This document shows, one piece after another, positions 22,048 through 34,827 of a stretch of 64,000 bases of DNA. A program made the position numbers and the translations under genes. Numbering within the stretch: position 1 is the first letter of the stretch; each line of letters starts with the position of its first letter. This DNA comes from Collinsella aerofaciens. Its GTDB lineage: Bacteria; Actinomycetota; Coriobacteriia; Coriobacteriales; Coriobacteriaceae. The notes under the pieces are model-generated. The model worked only from the letters and a program-made list of their open reading frames with translations. It had not been told where the DNA came from and ran no database searches. The stretch spans positions 434,001-498,000 of the forward strand of contig NZ_CP024160.1 in NCBI RefSeq assembly GCF_002736145.1, given 5' to 3'.

Positions 22048-22187
22048 CCTTGGGTGCCCGTTTACGTAATCTTTTATGCCGCTTAACCTGTAGCATATTG
22101 CAAACCTCCATCTGAGAAGGATACGCTCAACTTAACTTGCCAATCGGACCAGTGCTGTTTGGTCCGTTGAGCGTGTCGGGAGGAAAC

Positions 22188-25100
22188 ATGAACAGAAGGC
22201 ATGTCAACGCGGCCATTACCGCGGGTTTGGCTCTGACGATGACGGTCGGCTCGGTGCCGCCGCAGGCGTTCGCCGAAATGATGCAGGGTGATACTACCCA
22301 AGTCGTTGCCGAGCAAAGCGATGCGACGGGTGCGGCTGCCACGTCTGCGGACACCGGTCAGGCAACCTCGCAAGACCAGAGTGAAGACAAGATCGCCTCT
22401 TTTGCCAGCCTGAACGAGCTACATGTTGCCGAGGGATCCGACGCCACGCTGCCCCAAACTGTAACGGCAACCTACGAGAGCGGTACCACCAAGCAGGAAA
22501 ACGTCATCTGGAAGCTGAACGGCGCCGATGCTCCGGCAACCTTGGCGCAGCTGCCTGCCGGCTCGTATGAGTTTGAGGGTACCGTCGACGACATCACGCA
22601 GACGGTCAAGCAGCGCGTGGTTGTCGAAGCTGCTACGGCGGACCCGGCAGTGGTAGATCCGGCGGCAGTAAACGCCCCTGATGTCACAGAGACGAGCAAC
22701 GAAAGTGGCATTACGGTCGAGTCGATCGACGCCAACCCGATTCTGGAAAAATATGTCGGTGCCGATTACTACGGCCAGATCCAATCTTCGAGCGTTAAGG
22801 TAAAGCTGTCGGATGGCACCGAGACCTCGGCGTATGTTAATTGGGACGAAAAGTCGCAGACGGCATTTGATACAGCGACAGAAGAATCCGAAGTCCCCAT
22901 CACCGGACAGATTACCGGCGTAAGCGTGAATAGCAATTGGATCACGCTCGCGGAGCCGTACGAAGTGAGCGGCGTGCTTAAGGTATACGTTCCTCGCTCA
23001 ACCAGCAATGGCTCATGGATATGGACCGCGGCAGGTATTGCTCCCGCGGTTCCGTCTAGCATGTCGGTCGATTATTCAAATGGACAATCTTATACGTGCC
23101 CGGTTGAGTGGAATGAAATCTCGGCAGACCAGTACCAAAAAGAAGGAACCTTTGTTGTCGAGGGACATTTGAAGAACTATCCTTCCATGCTTGCGCACTG
23201 CACGGTCACAGTCCGCGCGGTTAAGAGTGTCCAGACCGAGTTGACGTGTACGACCCTAACCGGCGAGGCCCCGTCTCTGCCGTATTCTGCAGCGGTAACC
23301 TTCGATAACGGAGCCACCGAGCAGATTCCGGTGTCTTGGGATTCTTTCGACGCGTCGCTTTACTCTAAGGTGGGCTCGTTTACGGTTAAAGGTAAACTAA
23401 ACGGTTTTGATTACCGTGAGGTTACCTGCACCGTTACCGTCAAAGATCCTAAGGACGTACTCGATCTTAATTCTTTGAGGTTCGAGCGTGTGGTCGGCGA
23501 CATTTCTCCTCTTAGCACGTATGTCTATTTCCCGGTTACGCAGTCAAATAACACTACATACACCCAAGGTTATCAGGTTACCTGGGACAACGCCGACGTG
23601 TCTCAATTCCAAAAGGCAGGCACCTATACGGTCACGGGCACGCTTGTGACATATAACGAATCTTCAGCCGCTAATGGCCTAAAGGTAACTGCTCAGGTCG
23701 AGGTCAAAGAAGTTGCCTCTATCGACGCTCTTGCTCCCGTTAATACGCCCGTCGGCGTACGTCCTACAACGGGCGGCGGTCTTCCCTACAGCGTTGAGGT
23801 TGCATTCGCCGACGGTACAAAGAAGCAGTGCAACATTGCGTGGGACCCTATTTTGGACACGCAGGTGGCAAGTGAGGGGTCGTTTAAGCTTTCCGGTTCG
23901 CTGTCGTATTGGACCAATACCTCATCTTCATCGTCTACTCAGGTGGAGCTGGGTGACAGCAATCGAGTCACGGCGACCATCTCCGTCCGCGCCCTGCAGA
24001 TGCCTTCCTCGACATCGACAAGCACGCTTATCGGTTGCCAGCCCAATATGCCGGGTTCAATCGAGGCCACGATGTGGAATGGCTCGCGAGGCAATTTCCC
24101 CGTTCAGTGGTCGACTATTAGTCAGGACGCCCTAAAGAACCTTGGCCAGATTACGGTTAGCGGATACTTTACCGGCTCTAACATTCCGGCTACGGCGACG
24201 GTCAATGTGTGCGATCTTGAAGACAGCTACATTGGCAAGATTCCTTATGTTCCCGGCGCAGGTCTCTTGGCTCCGGGTTATGCGACCACGTTGTATTTAT
24301 CGGACGGCAGCTCCTTCTATCCCAGGTACTCTTCGGGGAATTCTTATAATTGGGATGAATTTCCCCAAGAGCTGTTGGACGGCAAGCCGGGCGAGTACGA
24401 AATTACCGGCACCATTGCCGGCTCGCTGGCAAAGATTAGCGCCGTCGCAGTGTGCGACGAGGTCAAGGGCGTCAATAACTATAACGATAGCGGCGTGACG
24501 CTTGGACAGTCGTACGAGGACTGGCGTGTTATCTACCCCGGTGAGGAAGTCAATCTGGACTATTTCACCGTTTCTGGCGCGCTGCAGAACGGAACGACCT
24601 TTAACGACTTGCACGTTAACTGGGACGCCTACGATAGGTGTCCCCAGAAAGACTGCACGGTTACCGGAACGGTCGCGGGAACGAATATTCCCGTGAAGGT
24701 GCACGTCATCGTGACTAAAAACTGGGAGGCTCAGCCTCAGGCCATTACGGTGCTTAAAGGCAGCGACGGTACCGCCATGCTTCCCAGCTATGTCGATCTC
24801 GTCAGTCCCGATGCGGCAGAACATCCGGACTATTCGAACAAATACGCCGAGGCCAAGTGGAACACGAAGGGCTTCGATTGGACCCAGGGCGGCGTGGTCC
24901 GCGGCACTGCAACAATGAGCTATAGCACGGGATACGGCATGCAGGCGGTCGACGTTCCGATTACTGCCACCGTTAAGATCGCGAGTAAGGCGACCTCGGT
25001 TCAGGGCGGAACCATATGGACCGTCCCCGGCACCAAGCCGATGCTGCCGGAATACCTTGAGGTTCGATACGATAACAATGTATCCTCTGAGCCCCAGCGC

Positions 25101-28100
25101 GAAAAGGTCACATGGGATCGTGTCGCCGAAGACGCGTATGCCAAGGACGGTTCGTTTAAGGTGAAGGGCAAGCTCCAAGGTGGTGCCGAGGCAACGATCA
25201 CTGTCGACGTTTGTTCTGTCACCTCTATTGCCGTTCCTGAACGAATTAACACGGTCAGCGGCGTTTTTCCTGAGCTGCCATGGAACGTCACGGTTGCCGC
25301 GAGCGACGGTAAAACTCACAATGCCCAGGTACAGTGGGATGACATTCGCCCCTCGGTTTATACCGGAGAGCCGGGTCAGGTCACGACAGTGTCTGGCGCG
25401 CTGTTTGCAAGCGGCCTTACTGGATACGTCGACGGCACCAACACCGGCCTCACTGTTCAGACCAAGATCGTTATCCAAGGCGTTGAGAAGGCAATCGACA
25501 ACGGCGAGACCGCGGTGACTACCAAGGCCGGCACTGCGCCTGCTATGCCGTCCAAGATGGCGGTCGAGATGAGCGACGGCTCCGTTTCGACGGCGGCTAT
25601 TGATTGGGATCCAATCGCGCCCGAGAAGTACGAGCAGCCCGGCACATTCTATGCGACGGGTCATGTGATTGGCTTTGATGCCGCTGCCGTTATGGCGCTG
25701 CTGGACGACGACGGACAAAAGGTCGGCGTGGATGAGAACGGCAACGTGACCGCCAAGGTGACGGTTGCCGACAAGAAGGCAAAGAAGGTTGCGCTGCAGC
25801 CCGAGGCCGTCGTGGTCAACACTACGGTCGGTTCGATGCTGGAGCTGCCAGATGCCGTGTCCGTATATTTCTCGGATGGCTCAGCGCGGGATACTCGGGG
25901 CGGTTTAGGCGGCATCGAAATCGAAAAGTGGACTGACACCGACGGCCTCGATCTTTCCAAGCCGCTCGCCAAGAAGGGCACATACAAACTCGTCGGTAAG
26001 CTTAAGGATGTCGACAACGTTAACGCCATCGTGTACGTCAACGTCTCCGAGGCGCCGCGAACCATCACCAAGCTCGAGGCCAAGTCGTTTAGCGTTGCCA
26101 AGGGCACGTCCAAACAGGACCTGTATGCCCAGATGCCTAAGCAGGTCGTGGCGACTTACTCCGACGGTTCGACCGATCTGCTCGACATTGACGTGTGGAA
26201 TCTTTCCAACGTCACGGATAAGCTGCTCAACGGAACCGGCACCGTGGAGATCACGGGCACGGTTAAGCTCAACGGCGCCAAGGTGACCTGCAACGTGACC
26301 GTGGTGGATCAGGATGCCCAGACGCCCGACTACGTCGAGCCGATCGATGCTATTGAGATTGCTGACAATGCCAAGGTCAGCGACCTTATGGATAAGCTGC
26401 CGTCCAAGGTGACGGTGGTCATGAAGGACGGCAAGACCAAGAACGAGACGCCCGTTAAGTGGTCTCAGGTCGACAGCCTGGGCCGTGCCGGCACCGAGTT
26501 TGAGGTCACGGGTCTGACGGACAACGGCATGACCGTAAAGGTTCAGGTCAAGGTGACGGCGCATATCGTGAGCTTTGATACCGTTGACGAGATTGAGGTC
26601 GAGCGCGATACCAAGGCGGATGAGGCTAAGGCCAAGCTGCCCACCACGGTCACGGCGATTTACTCTGACGGTACCGATTCCGAAGCCGACGTAACGTGGG
26701 ATACCAAGGGCCTCTCCGACAAGGACTTTGCCAAGGAAGGTAAAGTTACGGTTAAGGGCACTGTTGCCGGCACGGATCAGAAGGCGGAGTGCACCATCAA
26801 GGTCGTCAAGCCATTGCGCGAGATTCCTGATCACCTGGCCGGCACGGTTGACGCTGTGACGCTCGACGACGGGGCGAAGCCCGATGCCGTTGTGGCCGCA
26901 CTGTCCAAGACCGTGAAGGTTGCCATGAAGGACGGCTCCGAGGTCGATTCGAAGATCGACTGGATTGCTCCTAAGGAGGCTCTCACCATTAAGAATGACG
27001 GCGCGAGCGTTGTCATTACGGGTAAAACCGCGGTTGGCAGCTTTGAGGTCAAGGCTACGGTCAACCTGGTGCCGGTCGTCGAGAGCATCGCTGGCGTCAA
27101 GCTTTCGGTTGCCCGCAACACGGCTGCTGCTGACATCGTGCTGCCTGCCCAGGTGACCCTCAACATGTCCGACGGCTCGACGAAGACTGCCGCCGTTACG
27201 TGGGATAAGACTCCGCTTACGGCAGATGCCTTGGGCAAGCTGGGCGATGTTGCACTTGAGGGCAAAGTAGAGGGCACTTCGGTTAAGGCCAAGTGCACGG
27301 TCACGGTCGTGAAGAGCAATGCCGAGATTCCGGCCTCTGTTGAGCCTCTCGCGGGAGTTAACGTTCCCGAGGGCTCGTCGGCCGATGCAGTGCGCGAGGC
27401 ACTCAAGGGCGTCAAGGCGACAGTGCTCATGAAGGACGGCAAGACGACGGCAGAGTCTGAGATCACATGGACTGAGGTTCCTGCCGCGGCCGACGCGTAC
27501 GGCAACAGCGTCGTCGCCAAGGGCGTGACGGTGAACGGTAACCTGCCGGTCGAGGTTATTGTTACCTCCATGACGACGATCAACAAGGTTGCCGAGGTGC
27601 CGCAGATCACGGTTGAGCGCGATGCCAAGGCCGATACCGTGACGGGGCAGCTGCCCAAGAAGGTTACCGTGACCTATTCCGATGGTCACACGGACGAGGC
27701 CGCGGTCACGTGGAATACGGATGGCCTGGACAAGCAGCTTGCCGCCGTTGGCGAGTACACGATCGAGGGCTCCGTTGAGGGCACGACGCTCAAAGCGACC
27801 TGCAAACTGGTCGTCGAGACGCCGGCAAGTGAGATTCCCGTGAGGCCTGCGACGTTCGCTCCCGTTGAGGTGTTTGAGGCAAGCTCTGCTGCCGATGTGC
27901 TGAAGGCGCTGCCCAAGAAGGTCTCCGTGATGATGAAGGACGGCAGCCAGGAAGACTACAACGTCGATTGGGAGAATGTTCCCGCGCTGGATTGGGGTGC
28001 CGATGATGTGACCGTGGACGGTAAGGTCCGCGGTACGGAACTGACGGTCAGCTGCAGGGTACGCGTTAAGCCGCGCCCGGCAGCCAGCGGGCTTGTTATC

Positions 28101-28640
28101 GTTGACCAAAACGGCAAGGCTACGACTGCCGAGACCGTGCTTAAGGTTGAGCGCGGCAAGGAGATTGACCTTGCTGCCGCGGCGAGCAATGCGGCCGATG
28201 GCGCGCTGCTGCGTGGTACCGTGACGTGGACCTCGTCCGACCCGACGATCGCTACGGTCGAGAACGGTAAGGTCAAGGCCCTCAAGAACGGAACCGTCGT
28301 CATTACCGCGACGATGCCCGTTGATGGTGACGCCGCAGCGATTGCGACGCTTGCCGAGGATGGCGCTGCGGAGACGCCGGCGCCTCAGCAGCTCACGGCT
28401 TCGGTGACTGTCGAGGTTGTTGAGCCTGTTGTTGTACAGGAGCCGACAGGCGGCAAGGATAACGGTGCCAAGCCCGATGCCAAGGATCCTTCGGGCAAGA
28501 AGAATGGCAAGAAGGCCGCTAAGGGAAGCCTGGCCGAGACGGGCGACAACACTGCCGTGACCGTCGCGGCGCTTGGCGGAACCGGCCTGCTGGCGCTGAT
28601 TGCCGCAGCGATTGAAAAGCTGCGTCATCGTACGGAGTAG
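22188..28640 (+). CDS. Giant LPxTG-type surface protein with about 22 Ig-like (Big_4) domains
   Basis: The 2150-residue protein starts after a clear GGGAGG Shine-Dalgarno sequence. A signal peptide covers roughly residues 1-31 (MNRRHV... ending PQAFAE). About 22 consecutive domains follow, each with a SDG/KDG turn, a VTWD-type Trp motif and a G-x-Y/F-x-V-x-G strand, matching Big_4. A Big_2-like domain (WTSSDPTIATVENGKV) precedes a Lys-rich linker and the sortase signal LAETGDN, a hydrophobic helix and a basic tail. From about residue 1400 onward domains alternate strictly between SDG and MKDG types, a two-domain repeat unit. It is likely a stalk or adhesin; no enzymatic domain is visible. Confidence 0.9.
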   Translation: MNRRHVNAAITAGLALTMTVGSVPPQAFAEMMQGDTTQVVAEQSDATGAAATSADTGQATSQDQSEDKIASFASLNELHVAEGSDATLPQTVTATYESGTTKQENVIWKLNGADAPATLAQLPAGSYEFEGTVDDITQTVKQRVVVEAATADPAVVDPAAVNAPDVTETSNESGITVESIDANPILEKYVGADYYGQIQSSSVKVKLSDGTETSAYVNWDEKSQTAFDTATEESEVPITGQITGVSVNSNWITLAEPYEVSGVLKVYVPRSTSNGSWIWTAAGIAPAVPSSMSVDYSNGQSYTCPVEWNEISADQYQKEGTFVVEGHLKNYPSMLAHCTVTVRAVKSVQTELTCTTLTGEAPSLPYSAAVTFDNGATEQIPVSWDSFDASLYSKVGSFTVKGKLNGFDYREVTCTVTVKDPKDVLDLNSLRFERVVGDISPLSTYVYFPVTQSNNTTYTQGYQVTWDNADVSQFQKAGTYTVTGTLVTYNESSAANGLKVTAQVEVKEVASIDALAPVNTPVGVRPTTGGGLPYSVEVAFADGTKKQCNIAWDPILDTQVASEGSFKLSGSLSYWTNTSSSSSTQVELGDSNRVTATISVRALQMPSSTSTSTLIGCQPNMPGSIEATMWNGSRGNFPVQWSTISQDALKNLGQITVSGYFTGSNIPATATVNVCDLEDSYIGKIPYVPGAGLLAPGYATTLYLSDGSSFYPRYSSGNSYNWDEFPQELLDGKPGEYEITGTIAGSLAKISAVAVCDEVKGVNNYNDSGVTLGQSYEDWRVIYPGEEVNLDYFTVSGALQNGTTFNDLHVNWDAYDRCPQKDCTVTGTVAGTNIPVKVHVIVTKNWEAQPQAITVLKGSDGTAMLPSYVDLVSPDAAEHPDYSNKYAEAKWNTKGFDWTQGGVVRGTATMSYSTGYGMQAVDVPITATVKIASKATSVQGGTIWTVPGTKPMLPEYLEVRYDNNVSSEPQREKVTWDRVAEDAYAKDGSFKVKGKLQGGAEATITVDVCSVTSIAVPERINTVSGVFPELPWNVTVAASDGKTHNAQVQWDDIRPSVYTGEPGQVTTVSGALFASGLTGYVDGTNTGLTVQTKIVIQGVEKAIDNGETAVTTKAGTAPAMPSKMAVEMSDGSVSTAAIDWDPIAPEKYEQPGTFYATGHVIGFDAAAVMALLDDDGQKVGVDENGNVTAKVTVADKKAKKVALQPEAVVVNTTVGSMLELPDAVSVYFSDGSARDTRGGLGGIEIEKWTDTDGLDLSKPLAKKGTYKLVGKLKDVDNVNAIVYVNVSEAPRTITKLEAKSFSVAKGTSKQDLYAQMPKQVVATYSDGSTDLLDIDVWNLSNVTDKLLNGTGTVEITGTVKLNGAKVTCNVTVVDQDAQTPDYVEPIDAIEIADNAKVSDLMDKLPSKVTVVMKDGKTKNETPVKWSQVDSLGRAGTEFEVTGLTDNGMTVKVQVKVTAHIVSFDTVDEIEVERDTKADEAKAKLPTTVTAIYSDGTDSEADVTWDTKGLSDKDFAKEGKVTVKGTVAGTDQKAECTIKVVKPLREIPDHLAGTVDAVTLDDGAKPDAVVAALSKTVKVAMKDGSEVDSKIDWIAPKEALTIKNDGASVVITGKTAVGSFEVKATVNLVPVVESIAGVKLSVARNTAAADIVLPAQVTLNMSDGSTKTAAVTWDKTPLTADALGKLGDVALEGKVEGTSVKAKCTVTVVKSNAEIPASVEPLAGVNVPEGSSADAVREALKGVKATVLMKDGKTTAESEITWTEVPAAADAYGNSVVAKGVTVNGNLPVEVIVTSMTTINKVAEVPQITVERDAKADTVTGQLPKKVTVTYSDGHTDEAAVTWNTDGLDKQLAAVGEYTIEGSVEGTTLKATCKLVVETPASEIPVRPATFAPVEVFEASSAADVLKALPKKVSVMMKDGSQEDYNVDWENVPALDWGADDVTVDGKVRGTELTVSCRVRVKPRPAASGLVIVDQNGKATTAETVLKVERGKEIDLAAAASNAADGALLRGTVTWTSSDPTIATVENGKVKALKNGTVVITATMPVDGDAAAIATLAEDGAAETPAPQQLTASVTVEVVEPVVVQEPTGGKDNGAKPDAKDPSGKKNGKKAAKGSLAETGDNTAVTVAALGGTGLLALIAAAIEKLRHRTE

Positions 28641-32295: not shown

Positions 32296-33750
32296 CTAAC
32301 GCACCCCCTTCAGCGGTCCCTCAACCAGCCAAGAACCGGCATCCTCCAACAGTACCTCGCTGGGGTCGCAGCCCAGCTCTCGGGCAAGAATCGCCACCAC
32401 ACGGCTTTGACAGAAACCACTCTGGCACCGACCCATGCCGGCACGACAGCGTCGCTTGACGCCCTCGACCGAAACCGCGCCCGGCTGGCGTCGGATCGCG
32501 GCCACGATCTCGGCTTCGGGCACCGTCTCGCAGCGGCAGACAATCTGACCCCACGTGGGGTCAGACTCGATTAGCTCTTCCTTGCGCGTTAGCGGCGCAC
32601 GGTCAAAGTCGTCCGGCGCGCGGCGAATTGGGTTCCAGTCGGCCCGCTCGTGCAGCTTCACGCCCGCCTCACGCATCACAAGCTCCATGCGCTCGGCAAT
32701 GGCCGGCGCGCTTGCCACACCCGGCGACTGAATGCCCGCCGCCTGGAAAAGCCCCGGCACCACGGCTGACTGCCCAATAAAGAAGTCGTTCGTACCCTGA
32801 ATGACCGGACGCCCGCCGGCAAATGCGCGCACCACGCGGCGCGTATCCAGATCGGACACCAGCTTGCGCGCGCCGCTCAGCAGCGCGTTCACATCGCTCG
32901 CATAGGTCTGCGTGTCGCCCGGCTCGCGCACGGCGGCCGTCGCGGTGATCACGGTGTTGCCGTGCACGGTGCCCGTCACGATAACGCCCTTCGACACCGG
33001 CGTCGGCACGGGGTAGAGCGGCATGAGCGTGCGCGGCTCCTTGTCCAGCACCACGATGTTGCCCTGACGCCAGACCATCTGGAACTCCTCGGCGCCCGCC
33101 ATATGTGAGATGTCGGCGGCGCCGTTGCCCGCGGCGTTGATCAGATAGCGGCAGCGCACGTCTCCGGCGGGCGTCGCCAGCGTAAAGCGCGCGTCGTCGC
33201 CCGAGCCCGCAACTTCAATCGCTTCCACCGGCGCGGACCGCATAAACGTCACCCCGTTGGCCACGGCGTTCTCCAGCGCGGCGATGGCAACCTCAAACGG
33301 GTCGACAAAGCCCGTCGAGGGGCACCACAACGCGCACGTAGCGTCGGCACTGGCGCGCGGCTCTAATTCGTGGATGCGGTCGGGTCCGATGATCGACAGC
33401 CTGGGCACGCCGTTGGCAAGGCCGTTGCGCCGCAGCTGCTCCAGATGCGCGCGGTCCTCGTCGTTAAACCCCAGCACCATCGAACCGGTGCGGCAGAACA
33501 GAAATCCCAGCTCCTGCGCCCACGTACCGTATAACTCGCAGCCACGGGCGTTGACGTGCGCCTTAACCGTGCCCGGCACCGGATCGTAGCCAGCGTGCAC
33601 TAGGCCGCCGTTGGCCTTCGACGCGCCCAGCGCAATATCGTTAGCCGCCTCGACCACGCAAATGGACAGGTCATAGCGCGCGAGCTGCCGCGCGATGGCG
33701 CATCCGGTAATGCCCGCGCCGACAATCGCGATATCAAACGTTTCTGTCAT
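32296..33750 (-). CDS. FAD-dependent glycerol-3-phosphate dehydrogenase-like protein (GlpA type)
   Basis: The 484-residue protein has a DAO domain with dinucleotide motif IVGAGITGCAIARQLA at residues 9-24, and a C-terminal BFD-like [2Fe-2S] domain: CRCE, then a CRAGMGRCQSGFC stretch (about residues 408-445). This combination is typical of anaerobic GlpA, which oxidises glycerol 3-phosphate to dihydroxyacetone phosphate. GGAGG lies just before the ATG. It is the first gene of a three-gene operon; the upstream region carries the 40-bp-register palindrome array at 33921-34295. Confidence 0.82.
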   Translation of the reverse strand: MTETFDIAIVGAGITGCAIARQLARYDLSICVVEAANDIALGASKANGGLVHAGYDPVPGTVKAHVNARGCELYGTWAQELGFLFCRTGSMVLGFNDEDRAHLEQLRRNGLANGVPRLSIIGPDRIHELEPRASADATCALWCPSTGFVDPFEVAIAALENAVANGVTFMRSAPVEAIEVAGSGDDARFTLATPAGDVRCRYLINAAGNGAADISHMAGAEEFQMVWRQGNIVVLDKEPRTLMPLYPVPTPVSKGVIVTGTVHGNTVITATAAVREPGDTQTYASDVNALLSGARKLVSDLDTRRVVRAFAGGRPVIQGTNDFFIGQSAVVPGLFQAAGIQSPGVASAPAIAERMELVMREAGVKLHERADWNPIRRAPDDFDRAPLTRKEELIESDPTWGQIVCRCETVPEAEIVAAIRRQPGAVSVEGVKRRCRAGMGRCQSGFCQSRVVAILARELGCDPSEVLLEDAGSWLVEGPLKGVR

Positions 33751-33920: not shown

Positions 33921-34295
33921 TCTCGATCTGTAACGGTAAGAAGGTTTTTGAGGTCTAAGATGTTACAGATTTAGATGAACCTATCAGTCGGTTTCGAATG
34001 TCTAAATCTGTAACAGTTAGACCTGTTTTTGCCGAGTAACTGTTACAGATTGAGACATTTGGCCTGGACGGTTTTCTTTGTCTCGATCTGTAACAGTTAG
34101 CTGATGATTTGGGTTCTAGATGTTACAGATCGAGACAAACCTTCAGGCGGATTTTGAATGTCTCGATCTGTAACAGTAAGAGGGGTTTTGGGGCCCAAGA
34201 TGTTACAGATCGAGATTGAAGTCGGGGAGGGACCCCTGTGTCTCGATCTGTAACATCTAGACCCGGATTTCGCCTCCACCTGTTACAGATTGAGA
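33921..34295. repeat. Array of ten 15-bp motifs in alternating orientation, exact 40-bp register
   Basis: The motif TCTCGATCTGTAACA (variants at positions 4, 5 and 15) starts on the plus strand at 33921, 34001, 34081, 34161 and 34241. Its complement starts at 33961, 34041, 34121, 34201 and 34281. Every motif is 15 bp and every spacer is exactly 25 bp, giving five potential hairpins with an 80-bp period. Spacers are only weakly alike. The array lies in the 645-bp gap between two divergent genes. It does not fit CRISPR, because motif direction alternates. Confidence 0.92.
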
Positions 34296-34395: not shown

Positions 34396-34827
34396 ATGTC
34401 CAAGTACATCTCCGAGCTCATGTCGCCGCAGCTTATGGGCGTCGTCTATGCCTTCGTTGGCTTTATCATCGCCCTGTATGTGCTGTCGGTCGTCTATGTG
34501 TTCATCGACGCTCGCCGCCGCGGCGCCAGCGCCTACGTGGCATGGGGCATCATCGCCCTCATCCCGTTTGTAGGCCTCATTGCCTACCTGGTACTGCGCC
34601 CGCACTCCTACGCGTCCGACCGCGAGGAGCAGGAGCTGGACATGGCCCTGCGCGAGCGCCAGCTTGCCCAGTACGGCACCTGCCCGCAGTGCGGCGCGCC
34701 CATCGAGAAGGACTTCGTCGTCTGCCCGGTGTGCGATACCCAGGTTCGCAACGTATGCCCCAGCTGCCATCGCCCGCTCGATGCGCACTGGAAGGTCTGC
34801 CCCTACTGCCGAACTCGCATCCAGTAA
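34396..34827 (+). CDS. Membrane protein with PLDc_N-like helices and zinc ribbons
   Basis: The 143-residue protein has two hydrophobic segments (about residues 13-37 and 48-66) with an FIDARRRG link, resembling the phospholipase-D N-terminal membrane region. It is followed by an acidic linker and two double-zinc-ribbon motifs: CPQCG...CPVC and CPSCH...CPYC (about 96-138). It is likely membrane-bound with cytosolic ribbons. The function is unknown. It lies next to the palindrome array, divergent from the GlpA-like operon. Confidence 0.75.
   Translation: MSKYISELMSPQLMGVVYAFVGFIIALYVLSVVYVFIDARRRGASAYVAWGIIALIPFVGLIAYLVLRPHSYASDREEQELDMALRERQLAQYGTCPQCGAPIEKDFVVCPVCDTQVRNVCPSCHRPLDAHWKVCPYCRTRIQ

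Follow-up and report, generated by a model that had tools for sequence, protein, structure and literature searches.

In the window, i.e., the whole 64-kb stretch of DNA analysed, an array of 15-bp motifs (33921..34295) lies between a minus-strand gene (32296..33750) encoding a FAD-dependent oxidoreductase with a BFD-like [2Fe-2S] domain, and a plus-strand gene (34396..34827) encoding a double zinc-ribbon protein whose N-terminus carries a hydrophobic segment. The oxidoreductase is GlpA-like, i.e., of the GlpA/type 2 glycerol-3-phosphate oxidase type with scores under the NCBIfam cut-offs, and the gene context, as read from fetched stretches with a simple home-made gene caller, is that described in the original prediction made from the DNA letters. 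The ten motifs start at 33921, 33961 and so forth up to 34281, with a step of always 40 bp and an alternating orientation, exactly as claimed; when up to 2 mismatches are allowed, the motif TCTCRATCTGTAACA occurs at exactly 10 sites in the 64 kb, while shuffled sequences yield 0.07 sites on average and never more than 1. These motifs pair as five inverted units of 55 bp each (15-25-15, i.e., two 15-bp half-sites around a 25-bp inner spacer) at an exact pitch of 80 bp, namely (i) unit 1 (33921..33975), with half-sites TCTCGATCTGTAACG / TGTTACAGATTTAGA, (ii) unit 2 (34001..34055), with half-sites TCTAAATCTGTAACA / TGTTACAGATTGAGA, (iii) unit 3 (34081..34135) and (iv) unit 4 (34161..34215), both with two perfect half-sites, and (v) unit 5 (34241..34295), the anchor, which is mostly kept in relatives. 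The variable motif positions are 4, 5 and 15, again as initially stated. Elsewhere in the window, a very large, repetitive surface-type protein of 2167 aa is encoded at 22137-28640, where the opposite strand also has a long open frame.

The genome to which the window belongs (G000; 2.31 Mb, single contig) contains 35 inverted pairs by the exact pattern and 40 by a relaxed one, and the exact core ATCTGTAACA is present there in 80 copies, nearly all within about 18 arrays of 1-5 units. These arrays almost invariably consist of complete 55-bp units, and every one of them sits between predicted genes. Only two of these 80 cores are isolated and both are array remnants, the array having lost its remaining sites in the first case and having been split by an insertion sequence in the second. 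Such pairs are by no means specific to a single assembly, as 24 of 45 Collinsella species genomes carry them, at 20-55 pairs each, while 19 have none and two have one. In one of the latter two (G013), the pair lies on a contig-end stretch (C21; L206:1494-1753) that is 91-97% identical to C. aerofaciens DNA and is probably a contamination or an assembly join; in the other, the pair fails a stricter pattern. Of the 398 genomes examined across the class, 24 contain the pattern, all of them Collinsella, and none of the other genera yielded an array. Among the matches listed, nearly every named public contig bearing the pattern belongs to Collinsella aerofaciens or Collinsella sp., including NZ_OY725717.1 (899,693 bp, C. 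aerofaciens), which is filed as a plasmid, has 21 array places and may be a piece of chromosome. Given a 20-base pattern and 257 Gb of sequence, the single matches in Nitrosarchaeum and in a Bacteroides MAG are, by our estimate, at the level of chance. Horizontal spread was rejected: no phage match was obtained, the lone match on a viral contig is actually host DNA adjoining a prophage integrase, and the single pair of G013 sits on the C. aerofaciens-like contig end described above. Identity of the zinc-ribbon protein to that of the window is 97-100% in array-bearing genomes and at most 86% in array-free ones, so that the array family marks one species complex, i.e., it is restricted to the C. 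aerofaciens group. A search of open-access papers returned no published description of the arrays, of the motif or of Collinsella repeats.

At the window locus, all 23 array-bearing genomes read carry the array, most of them in 2-8 whole units, and the final half-site begins 106-117 bp upstream of the ATG of the zinc-ribbon gene. The spacers of the units are common to several species and keep their order, differences consisting in the loss or replacement of entire 80-bp units; spacer orientation at this locus is constant in the 23 genomes, and a shufflon-like inversion was accordingly rejected. The zinc-ribbon gene is conserved whether the array is present or absent, and in array-free Collinsella it comes after a peptidase gene or the FAD gene, the intervening DNA being free of arrays. 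Most array loci are common to G000 and to a near-complete relative (G014). Three G000 arrays (L022, L023 and L025) nonetheless have array-free counterparts in G014, each site bearing one copy of REP-b (CCACCACAAAGGGGACAGGCACCTTTGTGGTGG), a second dispersed palindromic repeat found alone at several G014 sites where G000 has an array, and conversely the G000 counterpart of one G014 array (L202) is array-free. Given that close relatives can lack the array at a given locus, none of the loci is indispensable taken singly. Array length changes by whole 80-bp units and loci come and go between species, no clean target-site duplication being seen at the array-free sites. About 70 bp beyond another G000 array (L014) lies a prophage (L148:1044-9626) with an integrase-like gene (L148:1162-2289), and at this prophage site G014 carries a 38-kb insertion (C1, 264.7-303 kb) and no array.

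The anatomy of the family was established on 961 half-sites from 172 distinct arrays. Of 471 inner steps, 463 measure exactly 40 bp. The spacing is not random in other genomes, and neither of the two outcomes named beforehand as refuting the original prediction, random spacing elsewhere or confinement to one assembly, was therefore observed. The linker step is 40 bp (186 cases) or 41 bp (117 cases) in 303 of 318, which corresponds to a unit pitch of 80/81 bp; a forward half-site comes first and a reverse half-site last in 153 of the 172 arrays. The half-site exceeds 15 bp, with positions -3 to 0 preferring W, W, Y/W and R, respectively, positions 1-15 corresponding to TCTCRATCTGTAACA, positions 18-20 favouring TAG and an A/T run occupying the centre of the spacer. 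This refines the original description of the spacers as mostly unalike: the units of the window array are 60-75% alike, and across the family the flank, the TAG and the central A/T run are constrained. When each unit was paired with its nearest non-identical neighbour differing at up to 6 of 25 spacer positions, mismatches between these orthologous units amounted to 2.4% at invariant motif positions, 21% at positions 4 and 5, 10% at other spacer positions and 18% in the -3 to 0 flank. Selecting pairs with similar spacers lowers the spacer figure, which makes the contrast between motif and spacer conservative on that side; the opposite bias arises from a detection that needed recognisable motifs, yet missing half-sites within arrays are rare. 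Conservation of both the motif and the spacing fits purifying selection, in line with one of the two options originally proposed, a motif under selection, and with the held spacing.

Purifying selection is not the sole way to keep a motif, and the arrays could instead be non-autonomous mobile elements of the REPIN/BIME type, deprived of host function, for which a transposase, RAYT-like or other, would act in trans as the copying enzyme; the motif would then be conserved because only intact copies get copied. The inverted-doublet layout, the intergenic dispersal and the rarity of singlets match REPINs, loci are gained and lost, and RAYT-like genes (PF01797) exist in Collinsella, two of them in G000. 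The arrays also adjoin REP-b, which occupies about 36 places in the G000 contig (C1; e.g., L022:4976 and 5205, L023:4930 and 5264, and window 7971), often directly beside arrays; of the 8 REP-b copies in the stretches of sequence analysed, 7 are no more than 71 bp away from an array, a ratio inflated by the choice of these stretches around arrays, and 7 of 36 copies near 18 array loci is, by our estimate, many more than uniform intergenic placement gives. Nevertheless, no 15-mer motif occurs within about 3 kb of the two PF01797 genes of G000, and array-negative Collinsella species have such genes too. One of the two (L183:2120-3167; G000:C1 about 759.6-760.7 kb) is bracketed by inverted GGGGACAG / GGGGACAGACT-type repeats, the latter being likely the cognate REP/TIR family of this gene and distinct from the 15-mer arrays. 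RAYT was thus discarded as the mobiliser of the arrays, as the genes exist but the motif is not linked to them. Moreover, long-resident orthologous units keep the motif far better than the spacers, and units within one array are not near-identical. The motif was likewise rejected as the terminal inverted repeat or MITE end of a resident insertion sequence: the element that interrupts the inner spacer of one unit in an array (L024:4700-6037), IS1249/IS256-like by eye, has its own ends (GCTTATAGGACAAAATGTGTGTCC) and a 9-bp target duplication (GCAGCTAGG), and the near absence of isolated cores, limited to two remnants of arrays, also argues against a transposon end or MITE. On balance, a purely mobile origin appears unlikely, albeit deserving real weight.

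Alternatively, the arrays may be operators of one regulon, i.e., sites at which a transcription factor would bind upstream of the genes it controls. The end of the window array is about 100 bp 5' of the zinc-ribbon gene, at a distance nearly fixed in 23 genomes, and several array neighbours are sugar-metabolism genes or LacI or DeoR regulators. On the other hand, close to one array in two sits at a convergent junction, where genes end. Arrays favour convergent and divergent junctions: those with arrays are convergent in 44 cases, divergent in 28 and tandem in 22, versus 35, 58 and 214, respectively, for array-free junctions of at least 80 bp, these counts including orthologs repeatedly and hence not being independent. 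The shortage of tandem junctions may in part reflect an intolerance of insertions inside operons, just as array placement could in part reflect their tolerance outside operons. Besides, array neighbours are diverse (tuf, glmS, gltB, dxs, glgP), the zinc-ribbon gene is kept without any array in other Collinsella, and isolated single sites are absent apart from the two remnants. One dedicated regulon is consequently considered improbable.

The original prediction also raised a five-hairpin RNA or single-stranded DNA structure. Such hairpins could act as terminators, 3'-end stabilisers or processed small RNAs. The array strand does fold far better than shuffles (z -13.5), but this is expected of any inverted repeat, the inverted layout alone giving such a predicted fold. 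Were the hairpin the active form, the two variable positions of the stem would be expected to covary, yet the 15-bp stem is devoid of covariation, with 95.7% of stem cells paired against 95.6% in shuffles, and stem position 5 has 9 non-pairs against 10 G-U pairs. Beside the stem, pairing is avoided: the ten adjacent spacer positions are paired at 44.2%, a value equalled or exceeded by all 500 shuffles (mean 51.6%), and self-pairing is depleted at position 16 (12 vs. 28 expected) and position 23 (17 vs. 34) of 93 non-redundant units as well as at position -3 of 86 linkers (20 vs. 39). Neither is there a T-tract downstream, several neighbour genes have terminator-like hairpins of their own, and an Rfam scan of the array gave no match above gathering score, the weak matches being far under the cut-offs and nearly all to eukaryotic microRNA models. 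The lack of covariation together with the avoided pairing favours recognition of duplex DNA by a protein over a hairpin, which is now very improbable; each half-site seems to be read singly in duplex DNA, with long perfect palindromes being avoided.

Comparison of G000 with G014 further revealed four differences in which arrays flank a block in one genome and a single array stands in the other, with the outer flanks kept, namely (i) a 27-kb block in G000 (L015/L016 vs. L207 in G014), (ii) a 1.1-kb block encoding a 356-aa protein without family match (L017 vs. L190), (iii) a 4.9-kb block in G014 comprising a LacI/glycosyl hydrolase 1/PTS operon (L195/L196 vs. L020), and (iv) a 7.2-kb block in G014 (L197/L198 vs. 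L020). Accessory blocks bounded by arrays thus span 1-27 kb, and in the same region of other strains, modules between arrays are present or absent and reshuffled. An AbiEi-like assignment for the 356-aa protein between two arrays was dropped, as it has no Pfam or NCBIfam match. Although these four blocks and the reshuffled modules could suggest site-specific or programmed recombination joints swapping gene cassettes between arrays, such joints are hardly credible, since the spacers at the window locus are never inverted, usual recombinase core sites are shorter than the 25-bp spacer, and ordinary homologous recombination between repeats gives like patterns and could explain array-bounded blocks with no recombinase implied.

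The reading favoured here, with a modest lean towards it, is that the arrays constitute a BIME-like intergenic family proper to the C. aerofaciens group, made of duplex recognition sites for a putative sequence-specific protein and having an architectural boundary role. Each half-site, of about 33 bp with its flanks (WWYR-TCTCRATCTGTAACA-NN-TAG-N6-WWW), would be the recognition site; two half-sites would face each other across the A-tract within the 55-bp unit, and units every 80/81 bp would place neighbouring protein pairs at a fixed 40-bp spacing. The protein would be oligomeric and its binding probably cooperative, its likely job, as judged from position, being to cover a boundary between transcription units. 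The multimeric DNA-binding protein originally proposed is thus what fits best, but not with all sites on the same DNA face: 40 bp represents 3.8 turns (at 10.5 bp/turn), successive sites would drift by about 70 degrees and the spacing does not imply a straight filament along one face. Overall, the original interpretation is partly supported. Since the array-bearing species form one clade, presence and absence cannot single out the binding protein. Going one step further, a clade-specific punctuation of the chromosome, in which a putative dedicated filament-forming protein coats the arrays at the borders of transcription units, insulates neighbours and lets gene blocks be exchanged as cassettes between arrays, is conceivable but doubtful. 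C. aerofaciens is an abundant bacterium of the human gut and, to our knowledge, no comparable boundary or nucleoid element is known in Actinomycetota; with 20-55 strictly spaced units per genome in one species group, apparently maintained by selection, the arrays offer a concrete handle on such elements, and those at the edges of accessory blocks provide a practical marker of operon gain and loss among strains.

Respective to known systems, CRISPR was readily rejected, as the repeats alternate in orientation, the spacers have a common pattern and the two neighbouring genes are not cas. Other palindromic repeats carry specific tags, such as the GTAG/CGTC of REPs or the GGGGWSAS consensus of TIRYT-associated TIRs (PMC3733652); the neighbouring repeat REP-b (GGGGACAGGCACC) fits the latter, whereas the array motif carries neither GTAG nor CGTC at an end. 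REPINs of Pseudomonas are inverted REP doublets acting as a unit, with a spacer less conserved than the ends and some tandem clusters (PMC3116915). The arrays similarly have an inverted doublet as unit, a spacer less conserved than the ends and tandem clustering. Singlets are almost absent; a hairpin is possible but its pairing shows no sign of selection. REPINs, however, are mostly single doublets, their ordered clusters being near-identical, while Collinsella arrays are mostly multi-unit with window units 60-75% alike, and lack a flanking RAYT. Among known systems, the arrays come closest to BIMEs, in particular to E. coli BIME-2, such that the original statement that the array fits no known class no longer holds as regards layout. 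BIMEs are built of REPs that alternate in orientation at regular spacing; IHF, gyrase and Pol I bind to BIMEs as well as to REPs, and RAYTs have been proposed to mobilise them (PMC2817692). Likewise, the arrays are intergenic, occur at many loci with regular spacing and alternating orientation, and consist of head-to-tail basic modules in variable number with an occasional IS insertion. Unlike a REP, itself an imperfect palindrome of 20-40 bp, the 15-bp half-site has no stem of its own and only the pair is palindromic; unlike in BIMEs, the inner spacing hardly differs from the linker spacing, both being kept within about 1 bp, pairing past the motif is avoided and the palindrome is not kept by compensatory change (95.7% vs. 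95.6%); and, where a REP would flank its RAYT, the array motif flanks neither RAYT-like gene of G000. By analogy, the arrays would work like BIMEs, whose layout they share but whose defining REP features they lack.
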